From positions 252,296 through 316,295 of the forward strand of contig JALJOM010000003.1 of the NCBI GenBank assembly GCA_024304885.1: DNA of 64,000 nt, written 5' to 3'. Both the position numbers and the translations under genes were made by a program. Shown in pieces: positions 8,494 to 62,739 of the stretch. A model generated the notes under the pieces. The model was not told the origin of the DNA. It worked only from the letters and a program-made list of their open reading frames with translations, and ran no database searches. Each line of letters begins with the position of its first letter. Positions within the stretch are counted from its first letter, which is position 1. The stretch is from Beijerinckiaceae bacterium (lineage in GTDB: Bacteria; Pseudomonadota; Alphaproteobacteria; Rhizobiales; Beijerinckiaceae).

Positions 8494-8599
8494 CAGGGCG
8501 GGTTTCCGATTCTGTCGAATCGGATAGCCGCTCTGGATTTTTGTTGTGTCGCAATTTGACGACGCGAGGTGGTATCCGCTTCGCTGGAAATTGCGCTCG
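8494..8599 (+). repeat. Class A palindromic repeat (composite with class B)
   Basis: The first arm has TTTCCGATTCTG...GAATCGGA flanked by GCGG/CCGC. The second arm is GGTATCC with GCAATTT/AAATTGC flanks. It joins directly to the class B copy that follows. Confidence 0.75.
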
Positions 8600-8749
8600 A
8601 GCGGGATGCGGAAAAGTTGACACCGGTTTTCCGGCGCAATCGAGTTTACGCAGCTTGCGTAAACTTATCTGCTTATCCCGCTCCGAACTTTTGGAATCGA
8701 TCACGTGTCATGACTTTGGATCGAGTCGATCCAAGGTCATCGTGATCTA
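8598..8749 (+). repeat. Class B palindromic repeat
   Basis: The unit runs from GAGCGGGATG to GTGATCTA. It contains an outer stem GAGCGGGAT/ATCCCGCTC, a TTTACGCA...TGCGTAAA arm and a TTGGATCGA/TCGATCCAA palindrome inside GATCACG...CGTGATC. Nearly the same sequence recurs at 13235-13386 and 42309-42460. Its last three bases are the stop codon of the DUF533 gene. Confidence 0.85.
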
Positions 8750-9617: not shown

Positions 9618-9754
9618 GAGCAATTTCCGGCGAGCCGGACACCGGTTCGCATATCGATCTCGATGTTTCGATAGATCGACATCGATACGAAATTGCGACA
9701 AAACAAGAATGTAGAGCGGGTTTCCGATTCCGTCGGATCGGAAACCGCTCTAGG
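9618..9754 (+). repeat. Class A' palindromic repeat (long variant)
   Basis: Two class A arms (GAGCAATTTCC...GAAATTGC and GCGGGTTTCCGATTC...GATCGGAAACCGC) enclose an extra inner palindrome, ATCTCGATG...CATCGAT. The inner palindrome is also found near 43160-43195 and 47680-47725. Confidence 0.8.
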
Positions 9755-11111: not shown

Positions 11112-12224
11112 ATGCGGGTCCAATGGCAGATCGCGTTCTGGGGCGGGTCCTTCCTGTTCTTCGTCCTGATGCTCTGGCTGTTCAGCGGCGTCCTCCTGCC
11201 GTTCATGGCCGGGCTCGCGCTCGGCTACCTCCTCGATCCCGTCGCGGACCGGCTGGAGAAGCTCGGGCTCGGGCGGCTCGCCGCCACGCTCGTGATCATG
11301 GGCACCTTCATGCTGGGGTTCATCCTCGTCTTCGTCCTCGTCGCGCCGATCCTCGGCCGCCAGCTCACGATGTTCATCGAGGCGCTGCCGGCCTATGTCG
11401 CCACGTTGCAGGAGCTGATCTCCCAGGTCAGCCGGCAGGTCTCGCAAGAATACGGCGCCTTCCTGTCCGAGAAGCTCGGCCTCGAGCTGCCGACGCCGAC
11501 GGATATCCGCAGCTCGACGAGCGATCTCCTCGGCCAGGCGACGCAATGGGCGGCCTCCCTCCTGAGATCGGTCTGGACCAACGGGACGGCGCTCGTCGGC
11601 CTGATGTCGCTCCTCTTCGTGACCCCGGTCGTCGGCTTCTACATGCTGCTCGACTGGGACAAGCTCGTCGTGACCATCGACAACCTCGTGCCGTTGCGCC
11701 ATCGCGAGACGGTGCGCATGCTCGCGCGCGAGATCGATGCCGCGCTCGCGGGCTTCCTCCGCGGCCAGTCGCTCGTCTGCCTGTTTCTCGGCTTCTGGTA
11801 CGGGACCGGGCTTTCGTTGATCGGGCTGAATTTCGGACTGTTGATCGGAATCTCGGCGGGGCTCCTGAGCTTCATCCCCTATATCGGGTCCCTGACCGCG
11901 CTCGTCCTCTCCTCGGCGATCGCGATCGTCCAGGGCTGGCCGAGCTGGAACCTGCTCGCCATGGCGCTCGGCGTCTTCCTGACCGGCCAGTTCCTCGAGG
12001 GCAATATCCTGTCTCCGAAGCTCGTCGGCGATTCCGTCGGGCTTCACCCGGTCTGGCTGATCTTCGCGCTGCTCGCGTTCGGCAGCATGTTCGGATTCAC
12101 CGGTCTCATCGTGGCGGTGCCCCTTGCGGCCGCCACGGGGGTGGTGCTGCGCTTCGCGGTGTCGCGCTACCGTGAAAGCAAGCTCTATCGAGGTGTCGGC
12201 GAGGAAAGCCTGCCCCACGGATAG
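11112..12224 (+). CDS. AI-2E family transporter (PerM-like permease)
   Basis: The 370-residue inner-membrane protein has paired N-terminal helices (IAFWGGSFLFFVLMLWLFSG). A soluble segment of about 130 residues follows (MFIEALPAYVATLQELISQV). The conserved C-terminal helix group includes GLLIGISAGLLSFIPYIGS and FLEGNILSPKLVGDSVGLHP. These are signature regions of the AI-2E/PerM family, whose members export small molecules or drive sodium efflux; substrate is unknown here. I place the start at 11112 because upstream codons to 10989 are polar and do not match the family. It ends one base before the hdaA start, so the two are probably cotranscribed. Confidence 0.88.
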   Translation: MRVQWQIAFWGGSFLFFVLMLWLFSGVLLPFMAGLALGYLLDPVADRLEKLGLGRLAATLVIMGTFMLGFILVFVLVAPILGRQLTMFIEALPAYVATLQELISQVSRQVSQEYGAFLSEKLGLELPTPTDIRSSTSDLLGQATQWAASLLRSVWTNGTALVGLMSLLFVTPVVGFYMLLDWDKLVVTIDNLVPLRHRETVRMLAREIDAALAGFLRGQSLVCLFLGFWYGTGLSLIGLNFGLLIGISAGLLSFIPYIGSLTALVLSSAIAIVQGWPSWNLLAMALGVFLTGQFLEGNILSPKLVGDSVGLHPVWLIFALLAFGSMFGFTGLIVAVPLAAATGVVLRFAVSRYRESKLYRGVGEESLPHG

Positions 12225-12225
12225 G

Positions 12226-13089
12226 ATGGCTGCGATGGCCGACCCGCCTGCCGAGGACGCGCCCGAGGCCGTCCCGCATCCGCGGCAGCTCGCCCTCGAC
12301 CTCGCGCCGGGGCCAAGCTTCGATCCAGAGGACTTTCTCGTCTCGGGATCGAACGAGCGCGCCTATGCGCTCGTGGAGACCTGGCCGGACTGGCCGGATC
12401 CCGTCCTACTCTTGATCGGTCCGCCGGGATCCGGAAAGAGCCATCTCGGCGCCATCTGGGCAGCGAAGGCCGGTGCCCGCCGTGTGTCGGCCACCGGGCT
12501 CGCCGCGGCCGATCTCGATGCTTTCGCAGCGACGCCACTGCTCATCGAGGATCTCGACCGGGCGGGCCTGGATCAGGACGCGTTTGGATCGAATCGATTG
12601 AAACGCATGAACGTGATCGAGTCCGAGAGCGTAGAGCGGGATGTGGGCGGAGGGCCGGTGTCTGCCCTTCCTCGTCCCGCTCTCGTGCAGGCTCCCTTGT
12701 TCCATCTTCTCAACCTCGTGCGTGAGCGCGGCCCCGGGCTGCTTCTCACGGCCCGCACCCCGCCCGAGGCTTGGGGCCTCGCTCTCGCCGATCTCGTCTC
12801 GAGGCTGCGTCTCGCGCCGCGTGCCGAGATCGGCCACCCGGACGACGCCTTGATGCGGGCAGTGCTCGTCAAGCTCCTCGTCGAGCGCCAGCTCGTGGTC
12901 GATACGCGGCTCGTCGACTATGCCGCCCTGCGGCTCGGCCGCTCGCTCGATGCCGCGCGGCGCTTCGTCGAGGAGATCGATCGCCGCGCCTTGTCGCGCA
13001 AGGCGCGGATCACCCGCACGCTGGCCGCAGAGGTCCTCCGCGCGCTGGAGAGCCTCGAGGAGGCGGAGGATCGCACCCCCCGAGCCTGA
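12226..13089 (+). CDS. hdaA: HdaA-type DnaA regulatory ATPase with in-frame repeat insertion
   Basis: HdaA/Hda promotes hydrolysis of DnaA-bound ATP after initiation and works with the DNA clamp. RQLALDLAPGPSFDPEDFLV opens the family domain. The Walker A is GPPGSGKS near residue 67. Walker B-like LLIEDLDR lies near residue 106 and sensor-1-like LLLTAR near residue 170. The N-terminal QLALDL matches a clamp-binding motif. At 288 residues it is about 40 longer than usual. The excess lies between GLD (about residue 115) and ALFHLLNLV-like sequence, and is encoded by a class B palindromic repeat in frame. ATG 12226 is chosen; ATG 12235 is also possible. The insertion sits after Walker B, so activity may be altered. 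Confidence 0.85.
   Translation: MAAMADPPAEDAPEAVPHPRQLALDLAPGPSFDPEDFLVSGSNERAYALVETWPDWPDPVLLLIGPPGSGKSHLGAIWAAKAGARRVSATGLAAADLDAFAATPLLIEDLDRAGLDQDAFGSNRLKRMNVIESESVERDVGGGPVSALPRPALVQAPLFHLLNLVRERGPGLLLTARTPPEAWGLALADLVSRLRLAPRAEIGHPDDALMRAVLVKLLVERQLVVDTRLVDYAALRLGRSLDAARRFVEEIDRRALSRKARITRTLAAEVLRALESLEEAEDRTPRA
12571..12685 (-). repeat. Class B palindromic repeat inside the hdaA coding sequence
   Basis: This segment is an inverted, diverged class B unit. TTTGGATCGAATCGATTGA corresponds to the TTGGATCGA/TCGATCCAA core, ATGAACGTGATCGA follows, and then the outer stem GAGCGGGAT...GTCCCGCTC. It adds about 39 codons without a stop or frame change. Confidence 0.85.
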
Positions 13090-13118
13090 TCGCGCCCGCC
13101 GCCTCGGTGCGCGGGCTC

Positions 13119-13234
13119 ACAGCGGTTTCCGATCCGGCCGAATCGGAAACCGACTCTATATTATTGATTCGGCGTTATTGATTCGGCGCAGTTCCGCGAC
13201 GCGAAGTGGGATCCAACTCGCTGGAACTTGCTCG
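13119..13234 (+). repeat. Class A palindromic repeat (composite with class B)
   Basis: It begins AGCGGTTTCCGATCC...GAATCGGAAACCG. A small internal duplication of ATTGATTCGGCG follows, then the second arm GCGAAGTGGGATCC. It joins directly to a class B unit, the same arrangement as at 8494-8749. Confidence 0.8.
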
Positions 13235-13386
13235 AGAGCGGGACGAGGAAAAGTGGACACCGGTTTTCCGGCGCAATCGCGTTTACGCAGATTGCGTAAA
13301 CTTATCTACCTATCCCGCTCTGAACTTTTGGACTCGATCACGTTTCATGACCTTGGATCGAGTCGATCCAAGATCATCGTGATCTA
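13235..13386 (+). repeat. Class B palindromic repeat
   Basis: A near-complete copy running from GAGCGGGACGAGG to GTGATCTA. Its final CTA is, on the minus strand, the TAG stop of the following secreted-protein gene. Confidence 0.85.
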
Positions 13387-14010
13387 GGGGCCGACGTAGC
13401 GGATGGTACGGCCCTTCGGGTCGGTGATGAGGAGGCCGCCGTCCTCTTGCGCGGCTGCCGAGCGTCCCGTGACGAGGCTTCGCGCGGGCTCGGCGCGGGC
13501 CGCGCCGGTGCCGCGAGCATCGAGCGCCGCGAGCGCGGCGCGCTCCTGCTTGCCGAGCCCTTTGACCTCGCTGAGGCGCGCGAAATTCTCGGGCGTATGG
13601 CGATTGCCGCGCGGCCCGGTGAAAATCCGGATCCCGTTCGGCGTCATGACCGCGTCGCCGCCGCGAAGGCTGCTGTCGTCCATGAAATCCCGCGAGGCCA
13701 GCGGCAGGCCGGAGGGGCGGGAGCGCTCGGCGAGATGGAGCTTGCGGGCAGCCGGGCGAAGCGCCTTCTTCTTCTGCACCGGAGCGGCCCGCTGGACCGG
13801 TTGCTCGGGTTCCTGCCTGAAGGGAGCCCAGAGCGGCGACTTCGGGTTGAACAGGAAATCGAAGAAATCCGCGTGCGCCGGCGCGGGGGCGGCCAGGATC
13901 GCGAGCAGAGAGACGGCGAGCACGGCAGAGCCGCTCCGAAAGGCCGGGGCTCGTCCGAACGAGGCGAAAGGTTCGAGACGCATCGGGCTAACTCGCGCGG
14001 CTGCAGGCAT
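13384..14010 (-). CDS. Hypothetical secreted protein
   Basis: The 208-residue product has a clear signal peptide (hydrophobic VLAVSLLAILAAPAPAHA, cleavage near residue 47 after AHA). DFFDFLFNPKSPLWAPF follows, then a basic, Ala/Arg-rich low-complexity middle and the end GGLLITDPKGRTIRYVGP. It is probably periplasmic. I do not recognise a domain. An internal start at MRLEPF (position 13983) would give a more normal signal peptide. Its stop codon is supplied by the abutting class B repeat. Confidence 0.6.
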   Translation of the reverse strand: MPAAARVSPMRLEPFASFGRAPAFRSGSAVLAVSLLAILAAPAPAHADFFDFLFNPKSPLWAPFRQEPEQPVQRAAPVQKKKALRPAARKLHLAERSRPSGLPLASRDFMDDSSLRGGDAVMTPNGIRIFTGPRGNRHTPENFARLSEVKGLGKQERAALAALDARGTGAARAEPARSLVTGRSAAAQEDGGLLITDPKGRTIRYVGP

Positions 14011-15115: not shown

Positions 15116-15242
15116 GATCGAAACCCTCTCGAGATCGTACCGCTTTTCCGCAAGAGCATAGCGCAGGCCCCACCCCGCACCGATGGAAATATTGGCTGCA
15201 AGCCCCGATGGCCAGAGCCCGAATGCCGAGCGTCCGCGTCCA

Positions 15243-15353
15243 GCGCGGGATGAGGAAAAGTGGATACCGGTTTTCCGCCCGCATCCCGCTCAGTCTTGAG
15301 AATCGATCACGTTCATGAATTTGGATCGGTTCGATCCGAATTCATCGTGATCT
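15243..15353 (+). repeat. Class B palindromic repeat, shortened
   Basis: The outer stem GCGGGATGAGG/CATCCCGC and the terminal GATCACG...CGTGATC palindrome are present. The TTTACGCA...TGCGTAAA middle arm of longer copies is deleted. It lies just downstream of the aldo/keto reductase gene. Confidence 0.8.
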
Positions 15354-28992: not shown

Positions 28993-29116
28993 TTGCTCTC
29001 CCCCGAGGCTCGGAGCACTTCCCAGCGAGGCGGCTGCCGGTTCACGTCGCGAAAATGCGACAACGCAAGACTTTAGAGCTGGCTTCCGATTCCACCGGAT
29101 CGGAAGCCAGCTCTAG
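28993..29116 (+). repeat. Class A palindromic repeat, expanded
   Basis: An arm with GGTTCACGTCGCGAAAATGCG is followed by AGAGCTGGCTTCCGATTC and GGATCGGAAGCCAGCTCTAG. Compensating changes (CTGGCTT/AAGCCAG instead of GCGGTTT/AAACCGC) keep the stem paired, which argues for selection on structure. Confidence 0.8.
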
Positions 29117-36157: not shown

Positions 36158-36261
36158 CTAGATCGCTTTGCGATCCGCTCGGATCGGAAAGCGATCTACT
36201 TCTTTGTTTTATCGCATTTTCGCGACGCGAACCGGGGTCCGGTTCGCTGGAAAATGCTCTG
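36158..36261 (+). repeat. Class A palindromic repeat
   Basis: A full unit. Arm one is TAGATCGCTTTGCGATCC with CGGATCGGAAAGCGATCTA. The spacer is CTTCTTTGTTTTATCGC. Arm two is GAACCGGGGTCCGGTTC between GCATTTTC and GAAAATGC. Arm one shows compensated stem changes (ATCGCTTT/AAAGCGAT). It lies 59 nt upstream of the antiporter start. Confidence 0.85.
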
Positions 36262-42227: not shown

Positions 42228-42308
42228 GCTGTGTCTCCTCGATGAGATGCGGCGCCTCGACGCCTATATATTAAGTCTATATTTTTTATAGAAAGTCAAT
42301 GGCGAACG

Positions 42309-42460
42309 AGAGCGGGATGAGGAAAAGCGGACACCGGTTTTCCGGCGCAATCGCGTTTACGCAGATTGCGTAAACTTATCTGCCTATCCCGCTCCGAACT
42401 TTTGGAATCGATCACGTTTCATGACTTTGGATCGAGTGGATCCAAAATCATCGTGATCTG
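42309..42460 (+). repeat. Class B palindromic repeat
   Basis: A full copy starting GAGAGCGGGATGAGG and ending TCATCGTGATCT. Nearly identical to 13235-13386, including TTTACGCAGATTGCGTAAA, so these copies are recent or conserved. It lies upstream of the promoter region of the sulfonate-binding gene. Confidence 0.87.
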
Positions 42461-47761: not shown

Positions 47762-47870
47762 GGGAGGCTGGACAGAGACCCGCCCGGTCTCGTTAGGGCT
47801 GCTTCCTTCCGGACCTGACCCGGTTGGCGAGTGGTGCGTCCACCGCCAACCTCCCGGCCCCTATTTGGAA
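47762..47870 (-). ncRNA. ffs: Signal recognition particle RNA, small bacterial type (4.5S)
   Basis: The minus strand contains the invariant apical loops GTCAGGTCCGGAAGGAAGCA, the Ffh-binding site. A perfect stem lies on its 5' side (GGTTGGCG/CGCCAACC with loop GTGGACGCACCACT), and the outer stem GGGAGG/CCTCCC closes it. This is the usual alphaproteobacterial form and location, upstream of dnaX. Confidence 0.93.
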
Positions 47871-48267: not shown

Positions 48268-48356
48268 CGGCCGAGAAGGGTGTTCGGGCTGCTTCCTTCC
48301 GGACCTGACACGGTCGGCGAGTGGTGCGTCCAGCGCCAGCCTCCTTGCCCCTATTT
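48268..48356 (-). ncRNA. Second, degenerate SRP RNA copy
   Basis: The core loop GTCAGGTCCGGAAGGAAGCA and the flanking CTGGACGCACCACTCGCC are kept. The stem that is perfect in copy 1 now has a C-A mismatch and a T-G pair (GGCTGGCG/CGCCGACC), the GTGG/CCAC stem has a mismatch (CTGG), and the outer GGGAGG/CCTCCC stem is lost. It is probably a duplicated pseudogene, or a diverged second SRP RNA. Confidence 0.75.
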
Positions 48357-48434
48357 GGACTTTCGGCGTGCCTGTCCCAACCTTATTGATAAGAGCGCGA
48401 CGCGGCGCATGGCGGCGACTGGAAGAGCGCGATC

Positions 48435-49257: not shown

Positions 49258-49362
49258 TAGAGCGGTTTCCGATCCAGCTGAATCGGAAACCAGCTCTACA
49301 TTCTTGTTTTATCGCGATTTCACGACGCGAAGTGGTATCCACTTCGCTGGAAATTGCTCTAG
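49258..49362 (+). repeat. Class A palindromic repeat
   Basis: A full typical unit: TAGAGCGGTTTCCGATCC...GAATCGGAAACCAGCTCTA, spacer CATTCTTGTTTTATC, then GCGATTTC, GACGCGAAGTGGTATCCACT and GAAATTGCTCTAG. It lies between the convergent queC and cysG genes. Confidence 0.87.
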
Positions 49363-52965: not shown

Positions 52966-53067
52966 CGAGAATTTCCAGCGAAGCGGAAACCGCTTCGCGT
53001 CGCGAAATTGCGACAATACAAGGGTGTAGAGCGGGTTTCCGATTCTGCCGGATCGGAACCGCTTTAG
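52966..53067 (-). repeat. Class A palindromic repeat
   Basis: CGAGAATTTCCAGCGAAGCG with GCGTCGCGAAATTGCGAC, then GTAGAGCGGGTTTCCGATTC and GGATCGGAACCGCTTTAG. It is in the leader of the metal ABC operon. Confidence 0.8.
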
Positions 53068-62635: not shown

Positions 62636-62739
62636 TAGAGCATTTTCCAGTGAACCGGATACCGGTTCACGTCGCGAAAATGCGACAAAATCAGAATGTA
62701 GAACCGCTTTCCGATTCCGTTGGATCGGAAAGCGCTCTA
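62636..62739 (-). repeat. Class A palindromic repeat
   Basis: AGAGCATTTTCCAGTGAACC, GGTTCACGTCGCGAAAATGC, then GAACCGCTTTCCGATTCC and GGATCGGAAAGCGCTCTA. Its last bases hold the TAG stop of the adaptor gene, and it splits the adaptor from the pump gene in the same operon. Confidence 0.85.

Follow-up and report, generated by a model that had tools for sequence, protein, structure and literature searches.

Palindromic elements that frequently insert in frame into proteins have been described for Rickettsia and Wolbachia, as far as the consulted portions of the sources go (PMC3767692; PMC4224334; PMC10969869). The RPEs are palindromic repeats of 100–150 nt, some of which lie in frame in unrelated genes and others between genes, and the copies in genes encode a conserved peptide (PMC3767692; PMC10969869). 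Insertions resembling WPEs are reported in frame in addA, addB and priA, where they bring no premature stops except in one case in addA (PMC4224334). Excerpts of PMC10969869 describe in-frame fusions of intragenic MITE open reading frames as not unusual, RPEs as forming them unusually often, and similar protein evolution in other prokaryotes as conceivable. The GTAG- and CGTC-tagged REPs are also palindromic and have units of 20–40 bp, the CGTC class being the commonest in the alpha division (excerpts of PMC3733652).

A comparable element lies in the hdaA gene of a Beijerinckiaceae bacterium, in a 64,000-nt stretch of genomic DNA that was analysed as a whole (the window). Like the RPEs, it is a dispersed palindrome in the range of about 100–150 nt (114 nt here, 62 distinct copies, two covarying hairpins) and stands in frame in unrelated genes, namely hdaA, moeA and a chaperone-like gene, with error-prone polymerase and helicase genes in relatives. 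Unlike the RPEs, it has Hyphomicrobiales hosts without genome reduction, and the two are likened by behaviour and not by sequence. The same basis applies to the WPEs, which share the in-frame insertions and differ in host group. The element is short and non-autonomous as MITEs are, but it lacks terminal inverted repeats of 15–30 bp (its ends, CTAGATCACG and CTAGAGCGGG, have only CTAGA in common, as judged by eye), and no parent transposase was found. With REPs it shares the palindromic character, whereas their units of 20–40 bp compare with 114 nt here and no Y1_Tnp match was obtained in the own genome. The peptide was not found as literature text, and a search by title and start of abstract, with incomplete coverage of journals, returned no report of such in-frame elements for Hyphomicrobiales. 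These data are best read as a mobile palindrome of Hyphomicrobiales that resembles the RPEs and is tolerated within proteins, and the interpretation of the original prediction, an RPE-like in-frame palindromic element inside HdaA, is supported. That prediction had also placed such elements in Rickettsia and Wolbachia, which stands, and had called them unusual elsewhere, a view softened by the not unusual MITE fusions (excerpts of PMC10969869).

The hdaA gene and its insert

The hdaA gene (12226-13089, + strand) encodes a DnaA regulatory inactivator of the AAA+ type with 287 residues, insert included. The element occupies 114 nt (12571-12684, +), inverted relative to the class B orientation, and is read as DQDAFGSNRLKRMNVIESESVERDVGGGPVSALPRPAL. 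It forms residues 116-153 and introduces neither a stop nor a frameshift, as had been predicted; the extra segment expected to be about 39 residues long is real and measures exactly 38. It separates Walker B from the LFHLLN helix. The NCBIfam model NF006571 (HdaA) matches the product in two stretches (E 4e-69), the N-terminal part stopping at 103 and the C-terminal part restarting at 106; with the insert present, the score of 232.8 falls below the curated cut-off of 297. The insert is hydrophilic (GRAVY -0.53 vs -0.01 in the remainder of HdaA) and may form an exposed loop. A structure prediction from five sequences gave a poor model (mean pLDDT 47.6). A sequence search of the PDB returned weak Hda matches only (3sc3 and 3bos, E ~0.01), starting at residue 150, and Rfam gave no family at gathering score over 12000-13500, with two matches at chance level (E 0.44 and 0.65).

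Alignment placed an N-terminal clamp motif, a P-loop, Walker B and box VII in the protein; box VII is also named in PMC3836487. It is very unlikely that hdaA is decaying and tolerates the insert as a gene that has lost its importance. An extra 38 residues are unusual within an AAA+ core, but the open frame is complete, third-position G+C is high on both flanks (0.78 and 0.87), and the P-loop, Walker B, DLVSRLRLAP box and N-terminal QLALDL are kept in the rest of the protein. A second HdaA was likewise absent among the own-genome matches listed, the remaining ones covering query residues 75-163 only, around the insert. The protein presumably acts as HdaA, with the insert translated, as judged from sequence. 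The description of HdaA as an essential regulator is borne out by the consulted part of PMC3836487 for the Caulobacter protein, not for that of the present species.

A match to HdaA was found in 59 of 60 genomes, the own genome counted. The relatives aligned were the fetched part of the 58 matching genomes among 59 relatives, together with four named loci, giving 33 sequences (29 genomes and four Microvirga, the closest named relatives found). None of the 33 carries the insert or its residues. In all of them Walker B runs on to LFHLLN without an extra stretch, in line with the original prediction; the aligner places at most three of the relatives' own residues in the insert columns. The insertion into hdaA probably arose in the lineage of the source species. 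An assembly artefact or chimera could be imagined, repeats being a cause of misassembly, but its probability is practically negligible: the hdaA copy is distinct (the nearest of 20 others is 78% alike), HdaA sequence continues in frame on either side of it, and unrelated genes and genomes show the same pattern.

The repeat family and its hairpins

Within the window, a repeat search paired 12571-12623 in inverted orientation with 15300-15352 (79%) and 12610-12642 with 13312-13344 (85%). A 141-bp query found at least 42 places in the own genome, itself included, from 195 first-look candidates of which 40 were scored; the other places reached up to E 6.6e-24 at 75–85% identity. By iterated nhmmer, 12685-12571 aligned to model positions 3-118 (E 1e-27, 93 bits), so that the similarity to class B held on proper alignment. 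Among the 48 copies above 90 bits, drawn from the window and 40 fetched stretches, the hdaA copy scores lowest. Four other class B copies in the window, placed by nhmmer and the gene caller, lie outside called genes: three long forms at 8596-8747, 13232-13384 (just downstream of hdaA) and 42307-42458, and a short form at 15240-15352 (all +).

The unit measured from tip to tip is 115 nt in 27 of these 48 copies, 114 nt in eight, 111 nt in one and 151 nt, with an extra hairpin, in five; seven have other lengths. Units of 114 and 111 nt are readable in frame because they are divisible by three, whereas 115 nt would shift the frame. Of the six possible frames, the 114-nt consensus leaves one free of stops, and this frame closes with a Leu codon at the tip. 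CTAG is the consensus sequence of the tips, present on the left in 27/48, on the right in 32/48 and on both sides in 21/48 copies; no empty site was close enough to separate target from element and so to show a target-site duplication. Judged from the sequence and the tips of other copies, the hdaA copy has CTGG on the left (12568-12571, +) and CTCG on the right (12682-12685, +). With 150 scored out of 329 candidates, the consensus peptide gave at least 151 matches in the own genome, many being partial; this search supplied the extra 114- and 111-nt copies and favours readable ones. A rough codon-usage gene caller placed 53 of 62 distinct copies outside genes, five at gene edges and four inside genes (hdaA, moeA, mutase and chaperone), all four on the strand of the gene; the caller is crude and put the glyQ copy outside genes.

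Two hairpins are predicted in the hdaA copy. The first (12580-12606, +), with arms GCGTTT / AAACGC, is indicated by the fold, its pairs and compensatory changes against the consensus, and the second (12633-12683, +), with arms GAGCGGGA / TCCCGCTC, by the fold. Folding of the whole hdaA segment as RNA gave a z of -3.65, with two of 200 shuffles equally good. In 21 stop-free copies (alignment A2, from which L097 was excluded for its divergent end), 95.6% of cells pair, and both-sided changes occur in 12 of 39 pairs. These amount to 37 compensated cells, as against 11.9 in shuffles, and no shuffle of 500 reached this number, a count that, given the kinship among the copies, is not a probability. 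When the partner was slid by 1–3 columns, at most five compensated cells were left. The hdaA copy forms 35 of the 39 pairs, four of them doubly compensated. Compensatory changes thus preserve the two hairpins across copies, and the conserved unit is therefore the DNA palindrome and not the peptide.

No constraint at the protein level is seen in the hdaA insert, in which 15 of 22 changes are non-synonymous (71–77% expected). Non-synonymous changes make up 53/96 in the six in-gene copies vs 114/178 in the other 15 (Fisher p 0.16), which leaves room for weak protein-level selection on some in-gene copies. The insert is unlikely to have acquired a function, altering the contact of HdaA with DnaA or the clamp and being kept by selection. 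Its place beside the catalytic centre, the essential role of the Caulobacter counterpart (consulted part of PMC3836487) and its divergence, at 80.7% identity to the consensus the greatest among the 21 copies and fitting long persistence, would agree with such a role; the non-synonymous share, however, is near the neutral expectation, and with the insert in none of the 33 orthologues its conservation is not measurable. As a side observation, unpaired hairpin positions number 18 of 229 cells in the six in-gene copies vs 17 of 573 in the other 15, as if the palindrome were decaying inside genes; these sums were made by hand with no correction for divergence between copies.

In-frame copies in other genes and genomes

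From the own genome, 22 stop-free copies were extracted, and six of them (L083, L090, L092, L101, L102 and L111) occupy reading frames supported by a family match: hdaA, moeA, a Ubiq_cyt_C_chap protein, methylmalonyl-CoA mutase, glyQ and hisI. All six share one orientation and one frame. A further copy (L084), which opens a frame that matches hydrolases weakly, was not counted as in-gene. In moeA the element falls between positions 79 and 86 of the MoeA model. Close matches in nine of 14 other genomes of the genus end at query residues 99-103 and start again at 138-145, so leaving out the insert; the remaining five gave weaker matches only, perhaps paralogues. In the cytochrome-c-chaperone-like gene the Ubiq_cyt_C_chap domain is broken at 92 of 140, and the 65-residue tail, searched alone, gave no family match. 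The element of the mutase is near the N-terminus, the model match starting at 34, directly after it, and those of glyQ and hisI are at the N-termini, ahead of the model start; in these three genes the true start codon may lie downstream of the element.

Relatives carry the element as well. With the own genome counted in each case, matches were found in 6/15 genomes of the genus (E 1e-7), 14/298 genomes and 5/43 genera of the family (1e-10), and 4/397 genomes of the order (1e-8), two of them from other families. Across the class at 1e-8 the single match in 385 genomes was the own genome, the other 384 sampled, which may or may not include Rickettsiales, giving none to the peptide. Twenty gene-like loci were picked by eye from 40 fetched loci of relatives, and 18 of them match Pfam at 1e-5, including one with a stop inside the element (L129), of which only the downstream part was scanned. 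L144 matches CoA-ligase models in NCBIfam and none in Pfam at 1e-5, and L137, scanned with Pfam only, had no match at that threshold.

The position of the element within these genes varies. In the error-prone DNA polymerase of genome G011 the match spans the element (model stretch 1-807, element 667-704), and in G170 helicase domains flank it on both sides. ACR3 (G011) and NicO (G023) each match in two stretches, of which the best was seen and the far side is inferred. At several other loci the element precedes the first matched domain, and in the DNA polymerase III alpha-type gene of G170 it follows the last one. In G035, abutting units (L151 and L152) are in frame within one open frame.

The original prediction proposed a search for class B units in other open reading frames, and several in-frame copies were found, both in the own genome and among other genera of this family. 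With similar insertions elsewhere in the genome and in these genera, hdaA is not a singular event. Removal of the segment after transcription or translation, in the manner of an intron or mini-intein, would explain its tolerance in conserved cores such as MoeA. Such removal is nevertheless highly improbable, since neither the hdaA peptide nor the consensus peptide contains a cysteine and the tandem in-frame copies of G035 fit simple read-through. Inteins are not known to be as short as 38 residues, which also counts against removal.

The element-bearing Hyphomicrobiales genomes are about 3–6 Mb in size, the own genome being 3.8 Mb. The same peptide in unrelated genes of such genomes suggests that a reduced genome is not required. 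Hyphomicrobiales hosts may lend themselves more readily to culture and manipulation, and an old question would then be directly testable, namely whether such inserts are carried along neutrally or serve as raw material for changes in proteins.

Probable spread of the element and fate of the insert

The data are very probably explained by a non-autonomous palindromic element that spread through the genome and is read through in hdaA as a neutral spacer. A two-hairpin element with CTAG tips, usually of 111–116 nt, would have multiplied in this genome and in several relatives, with most copies settling between genes. Where a copy of 114 or 111 nt landed in the right orientation and frame, the protein would gain about 38 hydrophilic residues. 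The lineage would survive where the insertion site tolerates the extra stretch, so that survival of the host protein would act as the filter. The hdaA insert would most likely drift as a neutral spacer that is translated along with the rest of HdaA.

A bolder possibility, which seems unlikely, is a lineage-specific protein-insertion element that, through its one translatable frame with the Leu codon at the tip, repeatedly donates hydrophilic loops of 37–39 residues to core proteins in several Hyphomicrobiales genera, some of these loops being used later. The core proteins concerned would include replication, cofactor and tRNA-charging enzymes.

Candidate sources of mobility were also considered. 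The Y1 transposase family PF01797 had no match in the own genome (0/1), the control search being positive in 5 of 14, and a RAYT link is rejected for the own genome on this ground. A 1.6-kb repeat in G011 (L121 and L125) looked like a possible parent IS, but no transposase was seen in it by eye. The copies of this repeat are 99.9% alike over 1641 bases and end in part of the element, and there is a third matching place.

Other dispersed palindromic-looking repeats were noted in the window at 9651-9743, 29013-29105, 36162-36210, 49261-49309, 52966-53058 and 62638-62730. Two stretches of 78 nt (47792-47869 and 48282-48359), 490 bases apart, are 91% alike and resemble SRP (4.5S) RNA.
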